In this document: piece by piece, positions 2,475 through 3,649 of the stretch | Position numbering within the stretch: the first letter of the stretch is position 1 | How the letters are laid out: the number at the start of each line of letters is the position of its first letter | From: Bifidobacteriaceae bacterium | GTDB taxonomy: Bacteria; Actinomycetota; Actinomycetes; Actinomycetales; WQXJ01 | Direction of reading: 5' to 3' | Length of the DNA stretch: 64,000 bases | Assembly: GCA_031272885.1 (NCBI GenBank) | Contig: JAISSX010000037.1 | Coordinates: 79,034-143,033, forward strand | Position numbers and translations under genes: made by a program | The notes under the pieces: generated by a model | Told to the model about the DNA's origin: nothing | What the model saw: the letters and a program-made list of their open reading frames with translations, nothing else | The model's database searches: none

Positions 2475-2559
2475 GGAGGTGTCGCCTAGTGGCCTATGGC
2501 GCACGCTTGGAAAGCGTGTTGGGTGCAAGCCCTCGGGGGTTCGAATCCCCCCACCTCCG
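2475..2559 (+). tRNA. tRNA-Ser (anticodon GGA)
   Basis: GGAGGTG/CACCTCC acceptor stem, long variable arm, CTTGGAAAG anticodon loop, GGTTCGAATCC T-arm. Confidence 0.93.
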
Positions 2560-2562
2560 CAA

Positions 2563-2601
2563 GTGAAAGGGCCACGGGCGCCGCTCGTGGCCCTTTCGCT
2601 C
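2563..2601 (+). terminator. Putative terminator hairpin after tRNA-Ser
   Basis: GAAAGGGCCACG...CGTGGCCCTTTC inverted repeat. Confidence 0.6.
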
Positions 2602-2604
2602 GCA

Positions 2605-2890
2605 GTGGGGGGATTCGAACCCGTGAGGGCTGAGCCGTCGTGAGGAAGCCCGGTGGGCTTCCGAGCAGGCTCAGTCGCGCCGCCGGGCCAGCGGCCCGGC
2701 AAGCGGTGCGCTGCAGCGCGCAGCGCCGCAGCGCGTCGAATCCCCCCACCTCCGCGACGAGTGAGAGGGCAACGCGCAGCTTGCTGCGGCGTTGTGCCGA
2801 GCGAGGAGCAGAGGTCGTAGGCCGCAGGCCGAGCACCTCCGCGACGAGTGAGAGGGCAACGCGCAGCGCCGCAGCGCGTCGAATCCCCCC
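2605..2890. repeat. Mosaic of tRNA-Ser 3'-end fragments, palindromes and direct repeats
   Basis: Copies of the tRNA T-arm/acceptor (2605-2620 inverted, 2736-2755 and 2878-2890 direct), 34-bp repeat at 2747-2780 and 2834-2867, 30-bp repeat at 2718-2747 and 2861-2890. Confidence 0.8.
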
Positions 2891-2966
2891 GGATTACCGA
2901 AAGGACGCCATTCCAACGTCGCGACCTGGTTGAACATATACGCATATCGGCTGTATGCTTGTATGT

Positions 2967-3218
2967 ATGCGGACCACACTGATGATCGATGACGACCTAT
3001 ATCGGGACACCAAGGCCACGGCCGCCAAGCTAGGGCGCACTGTGGGGTCGGTCATGGAAGAGGCTCTCTTGGACCTCCTGGCCAAGTACCAGGAGCATCA
3101 CGTGCCACGCAAGCCGTTCCGGATCCGGGAGTTCACACCAACAGTTCCCGGGACCCTGCCTGGTGTTGACCTGAACTGCAACGCTGCACTCCTGGACATC
3201 ATGGATGGCCTCGCATGA
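2967..3218 (+). CDS. VapB-like (ribbon-helix-helix) antitoxin
   Basis: MRTTLMIDDDLYRDTKATAAKLGRTVGSVMEEALLDLL RHH-like N-terminus; stop overlaps the start of a PIN-domain ORF. Confidence 0.75.
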   Translation: MRTTLMIDDDLYRDTKATAAKLGRTVGSVMEEALLDLLAKYQEHHVPRKPFRIREFTPTVPGTLPGVDLNCNAALLDIMDGLA

Positions 3219-3649
3219 TCCTGCCCGATGTCAACATCCTGGTGGCCGCTAACCGGAGCGATCACCCTCAGCACGAAGCCATCAACGCCTGGCTGGCCAC
3301 TGTCAATGAGTCAAGCGACTGGTTGGGTCTGACGCCCGCGGTTGCCTCGGGATACCTGCGAATAGTGACCAACCCGCGGATTCACAAGGAACCGACGCCA
3401 CTGGATCGGGCGTTGGAGGTGATTGATGACCTCTTGGCAGCAGACCGAGTTTCATGGGTCTACCCGGGCCCAGACCACTGGGTGATCTTCCGCCGCCTGT
3501 GCCGGCAGGCCAATGCCACCGGCAACCTGGTCCAAGACGCCCACCACGCCGCCGTCGCCATTGAGCACGGCGCCAAGTGGGCCACCATGGACCGCGACTT
3601 CGCCCTGTTTCCCGGCCTGGACTGGTTCAACCCACTAAACCTCAGCTAG
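3215..3649 (+). CDS. VapC-like PIN-domain toxin
   Basis: MILPDVNILVAA N-terminal acidic motif, NLVQDAHHAAVAIEHGAKWATMDRDFALFPGL C-terminal PIN motif. Confidence 0.88.
   Translation: MILPDVNILVAANRSDHPQHEAINAWLATVNESSDWLGLTPAVASGYLRIVTNPRIHKEPTPLDRALEVIDDLLAADRVSWVYPGPDHWVIFRRLCRQANATGNLVQDAHHAAVAIEHGAKWATMDRDFALFPGLDWFNPLNLS

Follow-up and report, generated by a model that had tools for sequence, protein, structure and literature searches.

The repeats behind tRNA-Ser(GGA) in the 64-kb stretch of DNA analysed here (the window) are, as read from their sequence, parts of one structured insertion. Positions 2561-2755 are probably one copy of a gene-less mobile family, ~150-200 bp in length, that inserts at the T-loop of tRNA and tmRNA genes by a recombination we infer to act in trans. 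We consider it very likely that the family as a whole is mobile and structured and that its insertion is att-like. Table 1 presents the features of the window locus.

Table 1. Coordinates of the element and its neighbouring units in the window
Feature	Position	Strand	Basis
tRNA-Ser(GGA), host gene, intact	2475..2560	+	ARAGORN; Rfam tRNA 55.2 bits
Left T: tRNA 3' end starting in the T-loop; left member of the 20-bp direct repeat	2541..2560	+	20/20 identical to 2736-2755
Terminator hairpin, 18-bp stem	2562..2600	+	Fold; inverted repeats I1, I2
Terminator loop: centre of the palindrome T-terminator-invT	within 2562..2600		Centre coincidence across the family
invT: reverse complement of the host tRNA T-arm	2605..2622	-	18 matching nt
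P2: CCC-GTGA-GGG, GNRA-capped hairpin	2620..2629	+	Pairs kept in 25/25 elements, one pair once U-G
P3: long stem, CC-GGT-GG apex	2630..2674	+	Covariation
P4 hairpin	2675..2706	+	Covariation
P5 hairpin and junction G ahead of right T	2707..2735	+	Covariation
Right T: tRNA 3' end repeated exactly; P1 forms between its first part and invT	2736..2755	+	
Downstream unit ii: GACGAGTGAG-hairpin-GAGCGAGGAG..GGTCGTAGG, ending in the partial T ACCTCCGC (2835-2842)	2756..2842	+	
Degenerate unit iii: unit ii start fused to P5 end, ending in TCGAATCCCCCC (2879-2890)	2843..2890	+	Families D1, D2

Inspection of the window locus bears out the copies reported in a preliminary description, namely the exact recurrence of the last 20 bp of tRNA-Ser (TCGAATCCCCCCACCTCCGC at 2541-2560 and 2736-2755), the shorter direct copy TCGAATCCCCCC and an inverted copy at 2605-2620, which with its context extends to 27 nt at 93% (2528-2554 versus 2605-2631). 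Unremarked there were the extra partial T copy ACCTCCGC and a ~100-bp palindrome centred on the terminator, of which the inverted copy is the far arm. Allowing at most one mismatch, TCGAATCCCCCC occurs at four sites in the 64 kb, all inside 350 bp, where 0.53 are expected by chance; none of 100 shuffles reaches four sites, which rules out chance repeats. Positions 2605-2755 form a single multi-branched fold in which P1, built from invT and right T, encloses hairpins P2-P5. An inverted repeat representing the 3' end of a convergent tRNA was also rejected, given that ARAGORN calls no tRNA there and the core is not a tRNA. Relatives of unit ii follow T in two other loci (L075 and L076) and are also present in a third (L066). 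After the element, window positions 2955-3649 hold a small gene and a PIN-domain gene, a probable VapBC-type pair; of the pair named in the preliminary description, the PIN-domain toxin gene is supported by Pfam (PF01850) and the first gene is without a Pfam match. A tie between the element and this toxin-antitoxin-like pair was discarded, as the neighbours differ at other copies when viewed by eye.

Comparison across the family shows that each copy reads as left T, terminator hairpin, invT, core (P2-P5) and right T, with T beginning at about C56 of the host tRNA. The inserted 165-200 bp consist of hairpins and T copies and contain no genes. Measured back from the tRNA gene end, the start of the direct repeat lies 15-23 nt away in almost all of 55 elements, and in most of them 17-21 nt, which corresponds to T-loop position about C56/R57; in a second set, 28 of 35 start at -17 to -21. 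The other end of the repeat is the tRNA gene end (including CCA where encoded) in about half of the cases, and the others run into the terminator. Where copies are not tandem, the direct repeat measures 18 to 66 bp, and those of 40-66 bp that run into the terminator (L272, L273, L157 and L246) bear, by their sequence, a closer resemblance to a duplicated target than to an att core. The centres of palindrome and terminator lie at most 3 nt apart in 44 of 54 elements and at most 6 nt apart in 53; because these centres coincide, the sequence of the far arm, inverted T-arm included, can be read as copied from the near arm. The arms are paired at 51/52 positions in L290 and at 41/44 in L255. Older copies keep the palindrome only in its T-arm part: the acceptor part shows, on average, no better pairing than the control (0.45 versus 0.42), although 10/86 pair at ≥8/11 positions versus 1.5% in the control.

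Covariation shows that the core and the P1 stem are conserved as a base-paired structure, predicted to form on the tRNA-sense strand. Among six elements aligned with MAFFT, 24 of 49 pairs carry changes on both sides, and among 25 elements compensatory changes are found at 37 of 49 pairs (248 cells); in each case 0/500 shuffles reach the observed number. Because the 25-sequence alignment was fitted to the structure, the six-sequence alignment provides the more independent test. Pairing drops to ~40% in slid controls. Mismatches comprise 43 G-U versus 15 A-C (32 versus 6 without P1), favouring the tRNA-sense strand, which also folds more stably in 23/25 elements. A functional strand antisense to the tRNA, as in model R1, was dropped after this count. 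Many P4 and P5 apices read C-GNA-G, and P2 is a GNRA hairpin. Loops of both types are stable as RNA and as DNA, so the fold does not separate RNA from single-stranded DNA; G-T wobbles, too, are found in folded DNA.

Strand-specific pairing and a GNRA-capped P2 would suit a bacterial counterpart of SINEs, a structured RNA spread by retrotransposition, in which the T of a transcript would pair with a nicked T-loop and be reverse transcribed, with foldback of the cDNA giving rise to invT. Such a route would also accommodate a core joined at a fixed T-loop point, a target-derived invT and direct repeats of variable length. We nevertheless regard it as unlikely: the pairing bias fits folded DNA as well, RVT_1 reverse transcriptases occur in only 8/22 carrier genomes, and they are missing from G518, G519, G516 and G513 (13, 7, 7 and 5 copies), incomplete MAGs in which their absence makes a retro-mechanism less likely.

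Linkage of the family to tRNA genes was assessed with 46 unselected loci from the samples of Actinomycetota and of the Oscillospiraceae order, using search models that leave out the upstream tRNA and include P1, which holds T-arm-like sequence. In 35/46, the match begins no more than 110 nt downstream of a same-strand tRNA or tmRNA, compared with 4.3% of random positions in the same loci. The remaining loci comprise second tandem units 170-270 nt behind a tRNA (6/46), matches at a contig edge (4/46) and one locus without a tRNA (1/46, L313). Occurrence away from tRNA-Ser, raised in the preliminary description as a sign of a genome-wide repeat, is thus seen, though in an unexpected form: the element is found elsewhere in genomes, nearly always behind other tRNAs or tmRNA. 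Individual loci depart from the usual arrangement. At L245 (730-900) the core interrupts a tRNA-Leu gene between variable arm and T-arm, and the same core lies behind the neighbouring tRNA-Lys. Nested insertions at L257 (746-830) and L306 have the right T copy or the core split by further sequence, and L102, a mixed or rearranged copy, has invT and right T from different tRNAs with no intact tRNA upstream.

The genome of the window carries the same arrangement behind tRNA-Ser(UGA) on contig C38, with a direct copy of that tRNA's own 3' end (TCGAATCCCACACTCTCCGC), and a third core behind tRNA-Leu(CAA) without a right copy; contig C66 holds a decayed tRNA-Ser fused to invT. A dead tRNA-Ser(GGA) joined straight to an inverted T-arm is seen at L032 (988-1070). 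Near the second own-genome copy, ~7.5 kb with an apparent integrase gene (L030, 1340-8860) adjoin tRNA-Ser(CGA) and lie between two copies of its 3' end; this stretch looks like an ordinary tRNA-integrated element. A first covariance model, built from the three own-genome copies, identifies elements in genomes G001-G003 behind tRNA-Met, Leu(CAG) and Arg(UCT), a decayed one behind Leu(UAA), and one behind sequence reading as a tmRNA 3' end, where the right copy has diverged. The inverted copy fits the local tRNA in all four tRNA cases, and the right copy does so in Met, Leu(CAG) and Arg. At a contig edge of the same-genus genome G001 (L066, 30-140), related sequence comprises a T end, a terminator and an inverted T-arm.

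In wider searches, elements of this build turn up behind a broad range of tRNAs, and behind tmRNA, in Actinomycetota and Clostridia as well as in a few MAGs of Alphaproteobacteria. Model R2 found one further carrier among 396 genomes of the order; in that carrier's family, carriers number 9 of 151 Actinomycetaceae-type genomes, with 9/11 matches directly behind a tRNA. Through a pattern search over one genome per species, MAGs of Clostridia, Coriobacteriia and Propionibacteriaceae joined the carriers. With model R3, built from 25 sequences, the element is carried by 14/397 genomes of an Actinomycetota sample and by 36/245 genomes from the order of an Oscillospiraceae MAG, counts that are lower bounds because stricter filters were applied to large samples, and a single genome holds up to 13 copies. 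The E-values of the covariance models are rough. Alphaproteobacteria MAGs give weaker matches of similar anatomy behind tRNA-Gly, with a right copy, and behind tRNA-Thr. One genome of the window's order (G037; L077, L082, L084 and L085) contains tandem repeats with a related hairpin, GGCTGAGCCGTTAAGCG..CCAGTGG..GTAGGCTCAGCC; these loci contain no tRNA and match R3 weakly, and the repeats are possibly a tRNA-independent relative of the element.

Movement between tRNA genes is indicated by the copies of single genomes. In G518, cores behind LeuGAG, SerCGA, LysCTT, LeuCAA and SerGGA are 88-94% identical in the best pairs; over the whole set of genomes, the closest cores behind different tRNAs of one genome agree at up to 94-95%. 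Relative to within-genome tRNA shuffles, the match of invT to its own tRNA scores 789 versus 689 ± 15 and that of right T 1036 versus 727 ± 34, values reached in 0/2000 shuffles each. That is to say, sequence comparison shows near-identical cores behind different tRNAs of one genome, with both T copies and invT fitting the local tRNA. An empty site is seen at tRNA-Gly(UCC) of Arcanobacterium bovis (G247), where 184 bp with a 19-bp direct repeat are absent from the congener G257, whose tRNA..CGATTCCCGTCACTCGCTC runs straight into the flank; the locus of a third species holds a remnant that has decayed but shares the terminator. This single pair fits both original absence and loss by exact recombination between the T copies. 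The window's tRNA-Ser(GGA) is present without the element in nine family relatives, and three congeners of G446 have no element at tRNA-Ala(GGC). Local duplication also plays a part, given that several copies lie in tandem or are nested.

These empty sites and tandem copies, together with a patchy occurrence over many isoacceptors, speak against a cis-acting RNA switch for expression of the tRNA or its neighbour, which we consider improbable. Here invT would pair either with its own T-arm or with right T, sensing tRNA folding or integrity, and the switch would have spread by horizontal transfer and selection. The two mutually exclusive partners of invT, the structure conserved on the tRNA strand and the exact retention of right T are the observations in its favour.

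The preliminary description had offered two accounts of the stacked copies, att scars of repeated island integration and excision or a repeat family that includes the T-arm. The second of these stands, as the copies belong to a family containing the T-arm. From the first, the att-type footprint survives: the direct copies run from the T-loop to the tRNA gene end, and a clean empty site exists in a congener of another carrier. What does not survive is their reading as scars of islands, because the element is defined in part by its inverted copy, which fits each tRNA. Ordinary scars, left where larger tRNA-integrating islands or prophages have lost their interiors, would share the repeat that spans T-loop to tRNA end with integrase islands, and the tyrosine integrase gene of a larger element does abut one copy (L313). 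Independent deletions, however, would not leave the same ~100-nt covarying core behind dozens of tRNAs in several phyla, nor would they be expected to yield an inverted T-arm fitting each tRNA, and no full-length island with the core inside is present among the loci examined; we therefore judge such scars to be quite improbable. Least probable of all are non-mobile palindromes formed by template switching at terminators behind tRNAs, their cores swapped by ectopic gene conversion, since the terminator loop at the palindrome centre and the T-loop homology among tRNAs that could support conversion do not account for a core shared by distant phyla, for a right junction that stays fixed at the T-loop, or for a clean insertion with an empty site.

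We favour instead a non-autonomous element that would be inserted in trans by T-loop recombination. The most likely agent would be a tyrosine recombinase resembling those by which islands integrate into tRNA genes, because such enzymes are known to use tRNA genes, with the T-loop as a crossover subsite (PMC4383910), and because a larger element's integrase gene adjoins one copy (L313); a tyrosine recombinase acting in trans is nonetheless a possibility that we hold with some doubt. Upon insertion, left T would restore the tRNA. During insertion, the 3' end of the target itself would be copied by foldback into the far arm of the palindrome, such that every new insertion would obtain an invT fitting its tRNA. 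The terminator-centred palindrome suggests that invT is rewritten by DNA synthesis that folds back and uses this 3' end of the target as its source, a tentative proposal that we consider slightly less likely than not. The core would fold as single-stranded DNA or RNA, and the stem of invT and T may mark the crossover point. A tyrosine integrase acting on a fixed core alone leaves the fit of invT and both T copies to a new tRNA unexplained. A bolder version, which we think somewhat unlikely, is a programmable mobile nucleic acid that tracks tRNAs, in which invT would guide the element to the T-loop and insertion would copy the target back into the guide.

The recombination-inserted family that we favour resembles several known systems in part. 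As in integrative elements, the insertion lies between direct copies of the tRNA 3' end and leaves the tRNA intact. With the islands and prophages that target tRNA genes through a tyrosine integrase, it shares insertion at the tRNA 3' end, a displaced tRNA fragment as direct repeat, restoration of the tRNA by sequence of the element, the T-loop as a known crossover subsite and tandem arrays. In contrast to those islands, it measures ~150-200 bp, encodes no integrase or other gene in the inserted 165-200 bp, has a conserved folded core and an inverted T-arm copy, and uses many different tRNAs with one core. Integron cassettes carry short attC ends that act as folded single strands with strand-specific folding. 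A folded, strand-specific site is common to attC and the element, whereas the latter sits behind tRNA genes and is not arrayed at attI, has no R'/R'' boxes (RYYYAAC / GTTRRRY) recognised by eye, and uses target-derived sequence in its P1. MITEs and REP/REPIN sequences are likewise non-autonomous, multicopy, hairpin-rich short repeats. Unlike these, the element inserts at the T-loop and not at random, and it shows neither fixed terminal inverted repeats nor a fixed-length target duplication, as its inverted repeats follow the local target tRNA and its duplication varies from 18 to 66 bp. Casposons, which are Cas1-encoding transposons, in some cases duplicate a tRNA 3' end as the element does; the element lacks Cas1 or any gene and occurs in different hosts, and we know of no comparable inverted copy and core in casposons. 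To our knowledge, no other known system is gene-less and at the same time combines a conserved fold of several hairpins with an inverted target copy that updates itself.

Database searches agree with an apparently undescribed family. In Rfam 15, no family other than tRNA itself scores above its gathering score, and matches to miRNA-named families lie far below theirs and were rejected as hairpin artefacts. One exact pattern has 0 matches in viral contigs, and the window query matches phages only in its tRNA part and plasmids not at all; divergent members could escape both searches. Searches of the open-access literature on tRNA-linked repeats and on bacterial MITEs or SINE-like elements returned no description of the element, which leaves priority uncertain. 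Islander rejects candidates below 2 kb or without an integrase (PMC4383910), filters under which such elements would not be listed. A widespread class has apparently been overlooked because island finders require >2 kb and an integrase, and because RNA libraries lack it.

It appears that overlooked mobile DNA would sit behind some of the best-annotated genes of bacteria, many of them gut bacteria. The element also generates tRNA 3' fragments and terminators, which can confuse the annotation of tRNAs and the mapping of islands. If invT guides insertion, the element would be a natural system of very small size able to redirect itself from one tRNA gene to another, and a gene-less element of this kind could colonise any tRNA gene without harm.
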